From contig JAFLDO010000011.1 of NCBI GenBank assembly GCA_017302455.1, positions 1 to 64,000 of the forward strand: 64,000 bases of DNA, read 5' to 3'. The notes under the pieces are model-generated. The model was not told where the DNA came from and did not search any database. It saw only the letters and a program-made list of their open reading frames with translations. Both the position numbers and the translations under genes were made by a program. This document shows positions 4,796-60,723 of the stretch, piece after piece; position 1 is the stretch's first letter; each line of letters begins with the position of its first letter. Origin of the DNA: Accumulibacter sp. (GTDB lineage Bacteria > Pseudomonadota > Gammaproteobacteria > Burkholderiales > Rhodocyclaceae).

Positions 4796-5925
4796 GCCTG
4801 CTCGCCCGCCTCGAGCAGTCGGCTCCGATCCCGCTGGCCGCCGACATCGCCTGCGAGCGGGGCGAACTGCTGGCGCTGGTGGGGCCGTCGGGCAGTGGCA
4901 AGTCGACCATCCTGCGTTGCCTCGCCGGGCTGCACCGACCCGCGGGTGGCTACGTGCGCTGCGGCGACGCCACCTGGTTCGACGCCGCGCGCGGCATCGA
5001 TGTGACGCCGCAAGGGCGCCGCGTCGGCTTCGTCTTTCAACACTACGCGCTGTTTCCGCATCTGACGGCACTCGCCAACGTGACGCTGGCGCTGCAGCAT
5101 CTGGCGCCGGGCGAGCGATCGGCAAAGGCACGCGAGTGGCTGGCGCGCGCCAATCTCGAAGGTCTCGAGGCACGCCGCCCGGCCGAATTGTCGGGCGGCC
5201 AGCAGCAGCGCGTGGCGATCGCCCGCGCCTTGGCGCGCGATCCGCAGGTGCTGCTGCTGGACGAGCCGTTTTCGGCCGTCGATCAGGTCACCCGCCGCAA
5301 GTTGCTGCGCCAGCTCATCCACTTGCGGCGCTCGTTGCCGATCCCGATCGTTCTCGTGACCCACGACCTCGAAGAGGCGAGTCTGCTGGCCGACCGGATG
5401 ACTGTCCTGCACCACGGCCGCACGCTCCAGACGGCGGCACCGGACGAGATGCTGGCGCGACCGGCAAGCGCACTGGTGGCACGCCTGACCGACCAGCCGA
5501 ACCTGTTTGCCGGCAAGGTGCTCGAGCAATCGCCGGAGACCGCGACGACCGTCATCGACTGGCTGGGCCAGCCGCTGCTGGCGCCGTATCACGCGGGTTT
5601 TGCGGTCGGTGACACGGTCTCCTGGATGGTCCCCGAGGCGGCTGTCGTCCTCGTCCGCGAGCACCAGAGCGATCGTGAGAATACGGTCGCTGCATGCGTC
5701 AGCGAAAGACTCGCCTGGCGCGGCCACGCGACGGTGAGCGCGCGCGTCGCCGGTCGCCGCGACGCGACGCTGTCCTTCGCCATTGGCGCTTCGGTGGCGC
5801 AGCGGCGAGGGATCATCCCCGGCGCCAGTATCCTGCTGCAGTTGCAGAAATCCGCCGTGCGCCTGCTTCCTGCGGAGGAGGCGAGCCGCGCGCCAGCCAG
5901 CGGTCGAGGCGATGTTTCGCCATGA
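4792..5925 (+). CDS. modC: molybdate ABC transporter ATP-binding protein ModC
   Basis: 377 residues. ATPase motifs: Walker A GPSGSGKST (about 32-40), Q-loop FVFQHYALFP, signature LSGGQQQR, Walker B VLLLDEPFSAVD, and the switch His in VTHDLEEA. A C-terminal extension after about residue 240 holds a TOBE/Mop-type oxyanion-sensing domain, typical of ModC. The start ATG overlaps the modB stop by 4 bp; an open frame continues upstream through modB but has no family similarity there. The last ~20 residues (RAPASGRGDVSP) look non-conserved. Confidence 0.92.
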   Translation: MSLLARLEQSAPIPLAADIACERGELLALVGPSGSGKSTILRCLAGLHRPAGGYVRCGDATWFDAARGIDVTPQGRRVGFVFQHYALFPHLTALANVTLALQHLAPGERSAKAREWLARANLEGLEARRPAELSGGQQQRVAIARALARDPQVLLLDEPFSAVDQVTRRKLLRQLIHLRRSLPIPIVLVTHDLEEASLLADRMTVLHHGRTLQTAAPDEMLARPASALVARLTDQPNLFAGKVLEQSPETATTVIDWLGQPLLAPYHAGFAVGDTVSWMVPEAAVVLVREHQSDRENTVAACVSERLAWRGHATVSARVAGRRDATLSFAIGASVAQRRGIIPGASILLQLQKSAVRLLPAEEASRAPASGRGDVSP

Positions 5926-56148: not shown

Positions 56149-56154
56149 GCGGTG

Positions 56155-56562
56155 ATGTCGAGAAGCAGCGCATTTCTCCGGCTCGTCGTGCTGGCGTGGC
56201 TACTCGGTCTGTTCGGCCTTGCCGACGTGGTGCATGCTCGCGAGGGCCAGTACCTGCGGACCATCGCGGTTGCCGATTTGCCACCGGAGGCGCAGCAAAC
56301 CTTGCGCCTGATCCAGGCGGGCGGGCCGTTTCCGTATCCGCGCAAGGATGGCAGCACCTTCGGGAACTTCGAGCGGCGCCTACCCCTGCAGGCGCGCGGC
56401 TACTATCGCGAGTACACGGTGCGCACACCGGGCAGTCGTGACCGTGGACCGCGGCGGATTGTCGCTGGTCAGGGTCGCGATGGCAACGTTGCTACCTCAG
56501 GTGAGTATTACTACACAGACGATCACTACCGCAGCTTCTGGCGGATACGCGGAAACCCATGA
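56155..56562 (+). CDS. secreted barnase/RNase Sa-type guanyl ribonuclease
   Basis: 135 residues. Signal peptide of about 28 residues (FLRLVVLAWLLGLFGL, cleavage near VVHA). The mature part resembles microbial RNase N1/T1/Sa: GYYREYTVRTPGSRDRG with the general-base Glu86, PRRIVAG with Arg100-Arg101 and YTDDHYRSF with His124. So the catalytic Glu-Arg-His set is intact. It should cut RNA after G outside the cytoplasm. Begins 6 bp after aspS and overlaps the barstar gene by 4 bp. Confidence 0.88.
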   Translation: MSRSSAFLRLVVLAWLLGLFGLADVVHAREGQYLRTIAVADLPPEAQQTLRLIQAGGPFPYPRKDGSTFGNFERRLPLQARGYYREYTVRTPGSRDRGPRRIVAGQGRDGNVATSGEYYYTDDHYRSFWRIRGNP

Positions 56563-57002
56563 GCTTGAGACCTCTGCAGACACTGCTTGAAGATTCCGGC
56601 CAGGCCGGTATCTACCACCTGCCGGGGAGCGGCCGGGCGACGGTCAGACGCGCCGCCGAAGCAGGCGGCCTGGCCTGCTTCGAGGTCAATGTCGCCGACA
56701 CTGACCGAATGGATCTTGTCCTCGCTACGCTGGGACGGGGCCTCGACTTTCCCGAATGGTATGGCAACAACCTGGACGCCCTGAAGGACTGCCTCACCGA
56801 CTTCTCCTGGTGCGAAGCTGCCGGCTACGTCCTCATCATCTCGCACGCCGAGGCCCTGCAGGCTGCCGATCCGGCGGCGTTCAAGGCGCTCAACGAGGTT
56901 TTTGGCGCGGCTATTGCGGAGTGGCGGTCGCAGGATTTTCCGTTGTGGGTTTTCTACGATCTGCGTTCGGATGGACTGGCGACACTGCCGACGCTGGCAT
57001 GA
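56559..57002 (+). CDS. barstar-family ribonuclease inhibitor
   Basis: 147 residues with the barstar motif LDFPEWYGNNLDALKDCLTDF (in part; about 63-83), whose Asp and Glu residues plug the barnase active site in characterised pairs. It has no signal peptide, so it protects the cytosol. Overlaps the RNase stop by 4 bp and the nudB start by 4 bp: a tight toxin-inhibitor pair within the operon. Slightly longer than Bacillus barstar (90) because of an N-terminal extension (about residues 1-50). Confidence 0.88.
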   Translation: MSLRPLQTLLEDSGQAGIYHLPGSGRATVRRAAEAGGLACFEVNVADTDRMDLVLATLGRGLDFPEWYGNNLDALKDCLTDFSWCEAAGYVLIISHAEALQAADPAAFKALNEVFGAAIAEWRSQDFPLWVFYDLRSDGLATLPTLA

Positions 57003-57454
57003 CCCGGTTCAAGCGGCCGGTGTCGGTTCTCGTCGTGATACATTCGGCGGATCTGCAGGTTCTGCTGCTTGAGCGCGCGACGCATGTGGGCTACTGGCAG
57101 TCGGTAACCGGTAGTCAGGAGGGGTCGGAAACGCTGCTGGCAACCGCTGTTCGGGAAGTTGCCGAGGAGACGGGTATCCGGGCAGTACCGGCGGATTTGC
57201 GCGACTGGCAGCTCACCAACCGCTACGAGATCTTCGCCGAGTGGCGCCACCGCTATCCACCCGGCGTGCTGTACAACACCGAACACGTCTTTTCGCTGCA
57301 GCTTCCGGCCGTCCGTCCGGTGACGATTGCTTACGGCGAGCACGTGAACGCGTGCTGGTTGCCCTGGGACGAGGCGGCAGCAAAGTGCTTTTCGTGGAGC
57401 AACCGCGATGCGATTCTCATGTTGCCGGAGCGGACTGGCGAGCAGTGGCAATAA
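56999..57454 (+). CDS. nudB: dihydroneopterin triphosphate pyrophosphatase (Nudix)
   Basis: 151 residues from ATG 56999, overlapping barstar. The Nudix box G(X5)E(X7)REVAEETGI is complete (GSQEGSETLLATAVREVAEE in part; about 38-60). The C-terminal ACWLPWDEAAAKCFSWSNRDAI matches NudB, which acts in folate synthesis. aspS-nudB proximity is conserved in betaproteobacteria, here separated by the RNase/barstar pair. Its 3' end overlaps the end of the opposing CWC gene by 38 bp. Confidence 0.9.
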   Translation: MTRFKRPVSVLVVIHSADLQVLLLERATHVGYWQSVTGSQEGSETLLATAVREVAEETGIRAVPADLRDWQLTNRYEIFAEWRHRYPPGVLYNTEHVFSLQLPAVRPVTIAYGEHVNACWLPWDEAAAKCFSWSNRDAILMLPERTGEQWQ

Positions 57455-57629
57455 GGCGTTTCTCCAGGCAGACCGGGCAGTAGCAACGGCCTGCGCTTTC
57501 CGGGGCGACGCCTAGTGCTGGCTTGTCCATGCACCAGCACGACACCAGACCCGCCGCAGCGCCACAGAGGAACGGCGCTCCGCAGCCTACGCAGCAGGGC
57601 TTGTCCGTTTGCTCCCCAGGTGCCGTCAT
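57417..57629 (-). CDS. cysteine-rich CWC-domain small protein
   Basis: 70 residues from ATG 57629, nine bases after the bufC-like stop. Nine cysteines: Cys12, 13, 16, 22, 31, 33, 49, 51 and 54, in CCVGCG, CWC and CYCPVC, the pattern of the 'cysteine-rich CWC' family, which probably binds metal. No signal peptide, so cytosolic. As the fourth gene of the bufferin operon it may handle copper inside the cell; that is inference. It is convergent with nudB with a 38-bp overlap. Confidence 0.75.
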   Translation of the reverse strand: MTAPGEQTDKPCCVGCGAPFLCGAAAGLVSCWCMDKPALGVAPESAGRCYCPVCLEKRLIATARQSAPAT

Positions 57630-57637
57630 CTGCGTGC

Positions 57638-58405
57638 TCAACCTTTCGCCAGGAGTTCTTCGGCGACCCAGCGTCGGAGCAGGCCGGCCGCTGTCATGGC
57701 CGGTTCCGGATCGCCTGATTCGGCGATGAGCAGGCACCATTCGGCAAAGCTCATCGCCTGTGTAAGCGCCGTCAGCGCCGCCGCCTCGCCCGCGTCTGCG
57801 GAGCGCCAGCGGCAATCGAGCGCCGGGCGCCAGATCAGCAGGGCGTGCGGGAGCGCTTGCGGTTCTTCGGTCGTGGCGTCGGCATCGTCGTTGAGCGCCT
57901 TCCAGATCGGTTCGACGCTCCACGACAGGTTGACCACCCGCAGGGAAGGCGTCGGCTGCAAGCGCAGGGCCGGCCAGTCTTCAGGCCGTAGCGAGGCGAG
58001 ATCACTCAGAGTAAGTGGCACAGCCTCGGTGGCGTCGAAAGCCGCACGTATCGTCCAGTCCATCCTCGCCAGATCGACCAGCGCCGGGTGTGGCAGTCGC
58101 TCGACTGTGCCGGCGAGAAAGTCTGCCAATGCGTGGCCGAACCAGCGGATCGAGCGAAAGGGTGACGGATGGCAGTCAATGTAGTCTTGCGCCAGGGTCG
58201 CGAACGCGTCGTCGCCGAGTGCCCGGTGGAGCACCGGGAAGTTGTCGCGCAGCGCAGCCGCCAGGCGCGCACGGTAAGCCTGGACGTACAGGTCGTAACC
58301 GCCGCCCAACTGGTGGGGCTCCCCGGCAGCGAACAACTCACCGGGGGTCGTCGCACACAAAACGGCTTGCTGGAAACGCTGCTGCAGTTCGGCGAGCGCG
58401 CTCAC
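57638..58405 (-). CDS. DUF2063 (BufC/HvfC-type) partner of MNIO enzyme
   Basis: 255 residues from GTG 58405 with GGAGG eight bases upstream. The N-terminal DUF2063 'putative DNA-binding' domain ([38 protein letters not shown] in part) is now known as the precursor-binding or recognition partner of DUF692 enzymes. It overlaps the DUF692 gene by 4 bp (GTGA), as in bufBC and hvfBC loci. Confidence 0.88.
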
Positions 58406-59241
58406 GCGGCATGCCTCCGGTCGCTGAGGGTGCTCCCTGCCAGCGCGCGTGCGACGTCGAGTTCATCGATCAACTCGCTCAAGGGCGGGATATTGTCGTC
58501 ACGTTCGATCATTGTCGGCACCGGCCCGAGCCGCTGCAAGGTATGCGCGTAGAGATCCCAGACTGCTGCGCAGACCGGGTGATCGTGCGTGTCGATGATG
58601 TACGTTCCATGATCCTCGTGCCCGGCGAGATGGATCTGGCGAACGGCAGCGGCCGGCATTGCGTCGATGAAGCGGTGCGGATCGAAGCCATGGTTGACGC
58701 TGCTCACATAGACGTTGTTGACGTCGAGCAGGATCTCACAGCCCGTTCGGGCGACGAGTTCGCAGATGAACTCCCACTCGCTCATCTCGTCGGCACGGTA
58801 ACGCACATAGCTCGAAACGTTCTCGAGCACCAGGGGGCGGCCAAGGACCTCCTGCACCTGGGCCACGCGCGGCGCCAAGTGCTGCAAGGCGGCTTCGTTG
58901 TAGGGCAGCGGCAGCAAGTCATGCAGGTTAACCGAATCGGTTCCCGTCCAGCAAAGATGGTCCGACACCCAGGCTGGCTCGATCCTTTCGGCCAGCGCCT
59001 TGATCTGACGGAGGTAGGACTGGTCAAGAACATCGTTGCTGCCGATCGACAGCGAGACACCGTGCATCACCATGGGATAGTCGCGGCGGATGCGATCGAG
59101 AAAATGGAGGGGTTTGCCGCCATCAACCAGATAGTTCTCCGAAATGATCTCCAGCCAGTCCACCCCCTGTGGCGCGGCGACGAAATCGCCGTAGTGGTCG
59201 GTACGCAAACCCAGGCCGAAACCTTCGATCACCTTGCTCAC
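58402..59241 (-). CDS. DUF692 multinuclear non-heme iron oxidase (BufB/MbnB-like)
   Basis: 279 residues from GTG 59241, AAAGGAGA eight bases upstream. A TIM-barrel enzyme with the DUF692 motifs [66 protein letters not shown] and DTHDHPV; the His, Glu and Asp residues bind the iron centre. Relatives modify cysteines in peptides to thiooxazole or oxazolone groups that bind copper. Substrate here is likely the Cys-rich precursor encoded 74 bp upstream. Confidence 0.92.
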
Positions 59242-59314
59242 GGCGCTTGTCTCCTTTCGGTCGGCGGGTTCGGCGGCACGACCGCTCGCTGGCGGTCATG
59301 CCTGAACCTCGTTT

Positions 59315-59575
59315 CTACTTGACTACCTTGCCACCCGCATCCGTACATTCCTTGGCGCTGGCCTTGACGACCCAGCCCTGACCCTTGCAGGCGTTCATTC
59401 CCTTGCATTCGCTCTTGGCCGTCTTGCACTCGGAACTCCCCTTGCAGGAGTTGACTCCGGCGCAGTGAACGGGGCTTCCTTCTGCCGCGCTGACGGTTGG
59501 TGCCACGAAAGTGCCAGCGGCGAACAGGGCGGCCGCAGCGGCGGCGATGGCTACTCCAGACAGTTGATGTGACAT
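59315..59575 (-). CDS. bufferin-type Cys-rich precursor (BufA-like)
   Basis: 86 residues from ATG 59575 with AAGGAGA upstream. A signal peptide (1-30, alanine-rich, cleavage at VSA-AEG) is followed by a short mature region with six cysteines at 38, 44, 50, 57, 63 and 77, spaced in a near-regular CxxxxxC series (HCAGVNSCKG, ECKTAKSECKGMNACKG). This resembles periplasmic bufferin metallophores, copper-sequestering RiPPs matured by DUF692 enzymes. A longer in-frame reading to 59662 has no ribosome site. Confidence 0.85.
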   Translation of the reverse strand: MSHQLSGVAIAAAAAALFAAGTFVAPTVSAAEGSPVHCAGVNSCKGSSECKTAKSECKGMNACKGQGWVVKASAKECTDAGGKVVK

Positions 59576-59654
59576 CTCGCTTCTCCTTGTAGTGGGTTTG
59601 ATCACGTCAGCGCCGGCGACGCCGGATTCGACAATCGCTTCCCTGACGCTGCTT

Positions 59655-59682
59655 AGACGCATCGAAGCGACAATTACTTACA
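59655..59682 (-). promoter_or_regulatory. candidate ECF-sigma promoter of the bufferin operon
   Basis: On the minus strand TGTAAG (59682-59677), a 17-bp spacer and CGTCT followed by AAG (59659 down). The GTAA/CGTC pairing is of the extracytoplasmic-function sigma type and unlike sigma70. It would give a leader of about 70 bases before bufA. Confidence 0.45.
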
Positions 59683-59862: not shown

Positions 59863-60723
59863 ATGACGCACGCCCTGGCTTTACCGACCGTTTCGGCGGT
59901 CGGCAGCATTGATGCCTATATCCAGGCGGCCAGACAGTTTCCCATGCTGACGCAGGAGGAGGAGTTTCGTCTAGCCACCCGTTTTCGTGACGACAGCGAT
60001 CTCGATGCGGCACGACAGTTGGTGCTTTCCCATCTTCGGCTGGTAATCTCGATCGCGCGAGGCTACCTGGGGTACGGTCTGCCGCACGCCGACCTGATCC
60101 AGGAGGGCAATATCGGCTTGATGAAAGCGGTCAAGCGCTTCGATCCGGCGCACGGTGTCCGGCTGGTGTCGTTCGCCATCCACTGGATCAAGGCGGAGAT
60201 TCACGAGTACGTCCTGAAGAACTGGCGGATGGTCAAGCTGGCCACGACCAAGGCGCAGCGCAAGCTGTTTTTCAACCTGCGTAGCATGAAGGCGAACAGC
60301 GAGGCACTCAGCCCGGGGCAGGTCACTGACATTGCTCACCGCCTGAGCGTCAAGCCTGAAGAAGTGAGCGAAATGGAGGCGCGCCTGACGGGGCACGACC
60401 TGGCGCTGGACGGCGATAGCGATGATGACGAAGTGTTTGCCCCAATCTCCTATCTCGCCGACCATTCGAGCGAACCCGTGCATGTCCTTGAGGCGCGTGC
60501 GCGCGAGCGCTTGCACAATGAGGGCCTACAGGGTGCCTTGGCGAGCCTGGATCCGCGCAGCCGTCGGATTGTCGAGGCGCGCTGGCTGACCGACGAAAGC
60601 CCGGCAACCCTGCACGAGTTGGCGGCTGAGTTTGGTGTGTCCGCCGAACGAATCCGTCAGGTCGAAGTCAAGGCGATGCAGAAAATGCGCGCCAGTTTGG
60701 CGCCGTTGGTGGCCGACGCCTAG
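59863..60723 (+). CDS. rpoH: RNA polymerase sigma-32 factor RpoH
   Basis: 286 residues from ATG 59863. Region 2 with DLIQEGNIGLMKAVKRFDP and FAIHWIKAEIHEYVLKNW (split), the RpoH box QRKLFFNLR (about 134-142) that marks sigma32, and region 4 HELAAEFGVSAERIRQVE. Directs heat-shock transcription. CIRCE control links it to HrcA. A hairpin terminator follows the stop. Confidence 0.96.
   Translation: MTHALALPTVSAVGSIDAYIQAARQFPMLTQEEEFRLATRFRDDSDLDAARQLVLSHLRLVISIARGYLGYGLPHADLIQEGNIGLMKAVKRFDPAHGVRLVSFAIHWIKAEIHEYVLKNWRMVKLATTKAQRKLFFNLRSMKANSEALSPGQVTDIAHRLSVKPEEVSEMEARLTGHDLALDGDSDDDEVFAPISYLADHSSEPVHVLEARARERLHNEGLQGALASLDPRSRRIVEARWLTDESPATLHELAAEFGVSAERIRQVEVKAMQKMRASLAPLVADA

Follow-up and report, generated by a model that had tools for sequence, protein, structure and literature searches.

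The stretch of DNA analyzed here (hereafter the window) comprises 64,000 nucleotides of an Accumulibacter sp. contig (JAFLDO010000011.1, assembly GCA_017302455.1) and carries on its minus strand, from 59575 to 57417, a tight array of four genes in the order bufA2, bufB, bufC and a small cysteine-rich gene of the Cys_rich_CWC family (PF14375; henceforth the CWC gene). The bufA2 gene (59315..59575) specifies a Buf2-type bufferin precursor of 86 amino acids with six cysteines and, by eye, a Sec-signal-like N-terminus, which is recovered by the model NF050166 with 96.7 bits (cut-off 60, E 6.9e-28). It is followed by bufB (58402..59241), which encodes a bufferin maturase of 279 amino acids belonging to the MNIO (DUF692) family; this protein scores 394.5 bits with the BufB model NF050167 (cut-off 310) and 381.4 bits with PF05114, and its residues 6-211 and 214-268 align with the solved DUF692 protein 3bww. 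The bufC gene (57638..58405), overlapping bufB by 4 nucleotides, codes for a DUF2063 partner of 255 amino acids, a length in agreement with the two-domain form of the partner described in passages of PMC12452194. The N-terminal domain of this partner (residues 6-97) matches PF09836 with 64.4 bits against a cut-off of 27.2, and its remainder bears a weak likeness to HvfC (32.6 bits against a cut-off of 142). The CWC gene (57417..57629) starts with an ATG 8 nucleotides past the bufC stop and encodes a protein of 70 amino acids with nine cysteines and, by eye, no signal peptide, which matches PF14375 with 30.8 bits (curated cut-off 24). Since the precursor, the MNIO, the CWC protein and the N-terminal domain of the partner all pass curated cut-offs, a chance arrangement can be excluded.

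An initial annotation of this region had described four co-directional genes, overlapping or nearly so, for a six-cysteine precursor, a DUF692 protein, a DUF2063 protein and a nine-cysteine CWC protein, and had assigned them to a bufferin-type operon. Both claims are borne out, with all four genes lying on the minus strand and passing curated models, and the precursor and the MNIO passing equivalog models. The extent then given, 57417-59682, is correct at its left end, but its right end lies about 107 nucleotides upstream of the likely bufA2 start at 59575, where an ATG is preceded by a GGAG motif; the longest ATG-initiated form of the same open reading frame (ORF) begins at 59662.

Judged from its sequence, the bufferin part of the array (59575-57638) is an ordinary Buf2 operon without DoxX. 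With Buf2 operons (BUF_6/12Cys, BufA2) it shares the precursor-MNIO-DUF2063 order, the six-cysteine Sec-like precursor and scores above the BufA2 and BufB cut-offs. Compared with the layout bufA2-bufB-bufC(-doxX) it lacks doxX, a gene that is frequent but not obligatory, and adds the CWC gene behind bufC; no DoxX gene was seen by eye in the ORF list between or beside the four genes of the window, and a profile scan of a 14-kb piece gave no DoxX match. The Hvf/oxazolin operons (Buf_EGKCG; hvfA-hvfB-hvfC-hvfX) have the MNIO and the DUF2063 partner in common with the window, but its precursor and MNIO are of the BufA2/BufB type, with the MNIO remaining below the HvfB cut-off (274.4 bits against 360). 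An Rfam search and a scan for promoters and terminators revealed nothing informative.

The suggestion of the initial annotation that the CWC gene is a fourth member outside the known layout agrees with the main text of the MNIO landscape paper PMC12452194, in which CWC has 0 occurrences, and passages of which report extra conserved genes in bufferin clusters at extremely low proportions. Literature searches, which included main texts or passages of PMC12452194, PMC13097082, PMC12538549, PMC13419390 and PMC8692599, likewise recovered no account of CWC genes coupled to MNIO operons. That the CWC gene might be a chance ORF is ruled out by its match to the curated model together with evidence for purifying selection: among 11 CWC genes from Accumulibacter and its nearest relatives, nonsynonymous differences per site (pN) were below synonymous ones (pS) in 55 of 55 pairs, with the gene of L232 left out for its aberrant end and the overlap with the neighboring gene nudB (see below) possibly contributing to the constraint. 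The CWC gene of L232 (4168-4431), from an Accumulibacter metagenome-assembled genome (MAG), has an aberrant C-terminus that reflects either a natural change or an assembly error.

CWC genes behind MNIO operons in the genus, family and class

MNIO operons with a coupled CWC gene are a genuine, recurrent variant. Within the genus, 26 of 28 genomes have a CWC gene and 18 have a BufB above the cut-off, and in 17 of the 28 the two lie adjacent on the same strand about 0.85 kb apart, a distance that leaves room for the partner gene. The other genomes are nine that possess a CWC gene outside such a pair, G519, which has a BufB and no CWC match, and G534, which has neither. In all 12 readable linked loci from the genus or its nearest relatives the CWC start falls between -4 and +16 nucleotides from the stop of the partner gene, and this tight spacing holds despite wide divergence of the CWC proteins. 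A 13th locus, L239 from Candidatus Accumulibacter adjunctus, has kept the bufferin operon and nudB with no CWC gene between them. Among the best 80 of 577 BufB loci, nine are accompanied by CWC, and all nine belong to the 12 top-ranked loci, none of which matches the DoxX profile; in the other 71 of these 80, including all 68 ranked below the first 12, no CWC is in reach. Labels on the named genomes assign nine of the 12 nearest BufB loci to Accumulibacter, Candidatus Accumulibacter or Propionivibrio; L230 and L231 come from a single MAG of an uncultured proteobacterium and L237 from a MAG labelled 'Pseudomonadota bacterium'. The initial annotation had staked its proposal beforehand on the CWC gene being conserved next to DUF692 genes; it is so conserved within the genus, but outside it the conservation is patchy.

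Two broader samples were drawn evenly from larger groups, namely a family sample of 150 genomes, with 79 CWC genes in 77 genomes (single copy except in G016 and G038), and a class-wide sample of 369 genomes with 46 CWC genes. An MNIO in the genus and family counts is a match to the BufB model; genes within loci were called by ORF heuristics, with CWC starts chosen near the partner stop, a procedure that favors short distances but not exact overlaps. In the family sample 12 of the 79 CWC genes stand behind a same-strand MNIO or partner gene of the bufferin or Hvf/oxazolin type. Four of these operons (those of the window, G018, G079 and G014) are of the bufferin type with BufA2 present, in seven the MNIO belongs to the HvfB-type clade, and the remaining one, in G056, shows only the partner and DoxX at a contig end. 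The Hvf/oxazolin operon of L102, for instance, whose MNIO, partner and DoxX proteins pass as HvfB, HvfC and HvfX, likewise ends in a coupled CWC gene. The CWC start lies -17 to +10 nucleotides from the preceding stop in 11 of the 12 linked loci, with six exact 4-nucleotide overlaps, the exception being G014 with 114 nucleotides in between. As nine of the 12 linked operons possess DoxX as well as CWC, the latter is not a substitute for DoxX across the family; the proposal of the initial annotation that CWC takes the place of DoxX thus describes the genus of the window but not the family. In the Hvf-type operon of L062 a second precursor-like ORF of 121 amino acids, rich in cysteine and lysine (5472-5837, plus strand), lies between the DoxX and CWC genes, and it matched no NCBIfam model at 0.001 and no Pfam model at 0.01.

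For the other 67 of the 79 CWC genes in the family no MNIO operon on the same strand is in reach; upstream sequence of 1.5 kb or more was available for 65 of them. In the class-wide sample such an operon is in reach of 0 of 46 CWC genes, with at least 1.5 kb upstream available in 40, and inspection of that sample by eye showed no gene that constantly accompanies CWC. Co-occurrence of CWC and MNIO across the 150 family genomes is weak: for the CWC subtype of the window an MNIO is found in 39 of 67 genomes against 37 of 83 (Fisher p 0.10), and for all subtypes, which add 10 more genomes, in 46 of 77 against 30 of 73 (p 0.03). Nor is CWC restricted to genomes with an MNIO, as at E 0.001 the BufB model matches nothing in 28 of the 67 genomes with the window's subtype. 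In G101 an HvfB-type operon has a decayed CWC gene following its DoxX gene (L218:4040-4260), and an intact CWC gene lies elsewhere at nudB, while in its congener G046 the sole CWC gene is located in the operon. Together, these arrangements suggest that a single CWC copy suffices for a genome, irrespective of its location.

The nudB neighborhood and the origins of the coupling

In the window the CWC gene is convergent to nudB (56999..57454, plus strand), which encodes dihydroneopterin triphosphate diphosphatase (NF006961, 204.5 bits against 103), and its 3' end overlaps that gene by 38 nucleotides. The same convergent placement, within 300 nucleotides of nudB, is seen in 53 of the 79 CWC loci of the family. 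For 44 of these 53 no same-strand MNIO operon is in reach; among them is a shortened CWC gene of G038, which has a bufferin operon beside it on the opposite strand, in divergent orientation. The linked operons of G046, G113 and G014 retain CWC although nudB is not adjacent. MNIO operons also occupy this region in the absence of CWC: out of 85 MNIO loci lacking an adjacent CWC gene, many of them read with about 2 kb of flank only, six lie in or at the interval between argB/hsp20 and nudB (G053, G002, G090, G051, G120 and, on the argB side, G077). This weakens an argument in which repeated insertion at a random site would by itself be proof of function. For about 60 MNIO loci the sequence read extended roughly 2 kb to each side. 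Two loci, L175 and L156, contain two MNIO genes each, and in L175 (G002) both are situated between argB and nudB without CWC.

Phylogenetic trees, constructed by a quick method for 95 MNIO proteins and from 70 rows with just 58 columns for CWC, do not unite the linked genes in one clade. The 11 CWC-linked MNIOs on the tree are distributed over three clades (seven in the HvfB-type clade, three in the BufB clade of the window and one in another BufB clade), and this requires eight changes in CWC linkage, of which supported branches force at least three. The 12 linked CWC rows do not form one clade either, requiring nine changes with at least three forced; the CWC protein of L070, for example, has its closest counterpart (61%) in L051, a congener without an MNIO match. 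Thus, inheritance of CWC and MNIO as a whole unit is unsupported, and it would appear from these trees that the resident CWC gene was drawn in more than once, that operons were exchanged in place, or that an old link was often lost.

Two further features of the surroundings were examined. Between aspS and nudB the window encodes a ribonuclease (PF00545) and a barstar protein (PF01337) on the plus strand (56152-57002), and the same pair turns up again at many of the family's CWC loci that are linked to nudB. On the other side, the gene for sigma-32, rpoH (59863..60723, plus strand; TIGR02392, 402 bits against 323.1), is divergent from bufA2; it is also present upstream of bufA2 in eight of 12 other loci from the genus or its nearest relatives, and was not found upstream in L106, L233 and L234, the upstream sequence available for L235 amounting to about 0.6 kb. 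A heat-shock link of the bufferin operon is possible, with rpoH counted here as a frequent neighbor of that operon.

The CWC protein

The protein of the window displays the CWC motif of PF14375 with flanking pairs of cysteines. Eight cysteines (C13, C16, C22, C31, C33, C49, C51 and C54) are shared without exception by the 68 CWC proteins aligned, conforming to the pattern C..C...C...CWC...C.C..C, and many of the aligned sequences are from genomes without an MNIO match. Most likely the CWC gene specifies a cytosolic protein resembling a zinc ribbon, in which the eight conserved cysteines would form thiolate metal sites, probably for zinc. We know of no function assigned to the PF14375 family. 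Elsewhere in the samples the domain occurs without an MNIO, in varied neighborhoods or together with a DUF5522 segment, whereas in the window it is the product of the last gene of an operon for a ribosomally synthesized and post-translationally modified peptide (RiPP). Four class-level genomes (L152, L153, L154 and L155) have the CWC domain followed by a cysteine-rich segment in the same protein, and both of the two such fusions that were tested against Pfam match DUF5522. In L140 (1979-2650, plus strand) a CWC gene is located 65 nucleotides behind one for a PF02277 phosphoribosyltransferase, which we take to be an enzyme of the corrinoid pathway. This constitutes a second corrinoid (cobalt cofactor) context for CWC, beside the cluster of Sulfurospirillum, where, according to passages of PMC7755780, cbiA and sirC flank a CWC gene that is induced with the corrinoid genes.

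Explanations for the coupling

Taken together, we consider it probable, though with clear reservations, that the array arose by capture of a resident CWC gene into an otherwise ordinary Buf2 bufferin operon; the product of that gene would be either an optional cytosolic helper or a mere rider. In the proposed mechanism BufB, an iron-containing MNIO, and its DUF2063 partner would convert the cysteines of BufA2, presumably to copper-binding thiooxazoles, and the peptide, exported via its Sec signal, would buffer periplasmic copper in the manner of the described family. The CWC gene would stand outside this bufferin core, being in the family normally convergent to nudB with no MNIO operon. It would have come to close the MNIO operon both in Accumulibacter and in further genera that possess bufferin or Hvf/oxazolin operons. 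Such coupling would place it under the expression of the operon, presumably by co-transcription. Its product may then serve in the cytosol as an optional helper that, for example, shields the iron enzyme and the precursor in its still reduced form from copper or zinc, or alternatively it may simply ride along with the operon. The role of a helper or guard is plausible because HvfBC, according to passages of PMC13419390, acts via a mixed-valent diiron state and requires a reductant. Several points weigh against the capture of a resident gene as a helper or rider. The coupling is tighter and more recurrent than a pure passenger needs, and the changes forced on the trees may be losses as well as gains. 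At the protein level, no convincing solved-structure match was found by sequence for the C-terminal part of the bufC product, where a domain of the RiPP recognition element type would be expected; a PDB sequence search with the CWC protein recovered just short classical zinc fingers and other weak matches; and Foldseek with a model of the CWC protein (mean pLDDT, the predicted local distance difference test score, of 74) gave no match at E <= 0.001.

The coupling might alternatively be an effect of the neighborhood only, in which the argB/hsp20-nudB interval houses MNIO operons, CWC is resident at its edge and the spacer DNA between them was lost. The six CWC-less MNIO loci in or at this interval and the want of a constant CWC partner in the class-wide sample are consistent with such an effect, but the exact overlaps in six family loci, the close spacing kept by all 12 loci from the genus or its nearest relatives despite divergent CWC sequences, and the three genomes that retain CWC with the operon away from nudB argue against it; we see it as a possibility on the unlikely side. 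These same three genomes, together with the occurrence of CWC at the end of bufferin as well as Hvf operons, across three MNIO clades and with overlapping start and stop codons, favor a different proposal, that CWC is a dedicated accessory of thiooxazole-peptide operons, namely a cytosolic metal chaperone or guard working with the MNIO in iron supply or in exclusion of copper or zinc. The diiron chemistry of HvfBC and the corrinoid gene contexts of CWC in Sulfurospirillum and L140 would also fit such an accessory. It is nevertheless rather doubtful in view of the 44 of 53 nudB-linked CWC genes with no same-strand MNIO operon in reach, the weak co-occurrence, the 71 of the best 80 of 577 bufferin loci with no CWC in reach, the operon of L239 that has none, and the decayed copy behind the operon of G101 with an intact one at nudB. 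Finally, the nine cysteines and the location in the operon could be taken to mean that CWC is a second MNIO substrate, a leaderless cysteine-rich peptide staying in the cytosol, and putative precursors without signal peptides do occur in MNIO clusters (passages of PMC12452194). However, the eight invariant cysteines, shared with proteins from many genomes lacking an MNIO match, look structural, and the CWC gene lies behind rather than before the MNIO gene, which makes this highly improbable.

A bolder form of the helper idea, which we put forward tentatively and regard as rather improbable, is that CWC is an unrecognized cytosolic partner of bufferin and Hvf operons alike, a small protein with metal sites that guards or supplies the MNIO and the unmodified precursor under copper excess and was recruited several times from a stand-alone gene. 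Bufferins and Hvf peptides represent a widespread form of copper handling, and the coupled CWC gene offers a concrete candidate for how an iron enzyme and a thiol-rich precursor stay free of the very metals that the system targets. At the same time the coupling provides a context for PF14375. Should CWC prove to be a passenger, the locus would instead illustrate neatly how an operon can acquire a gene that was already resident.

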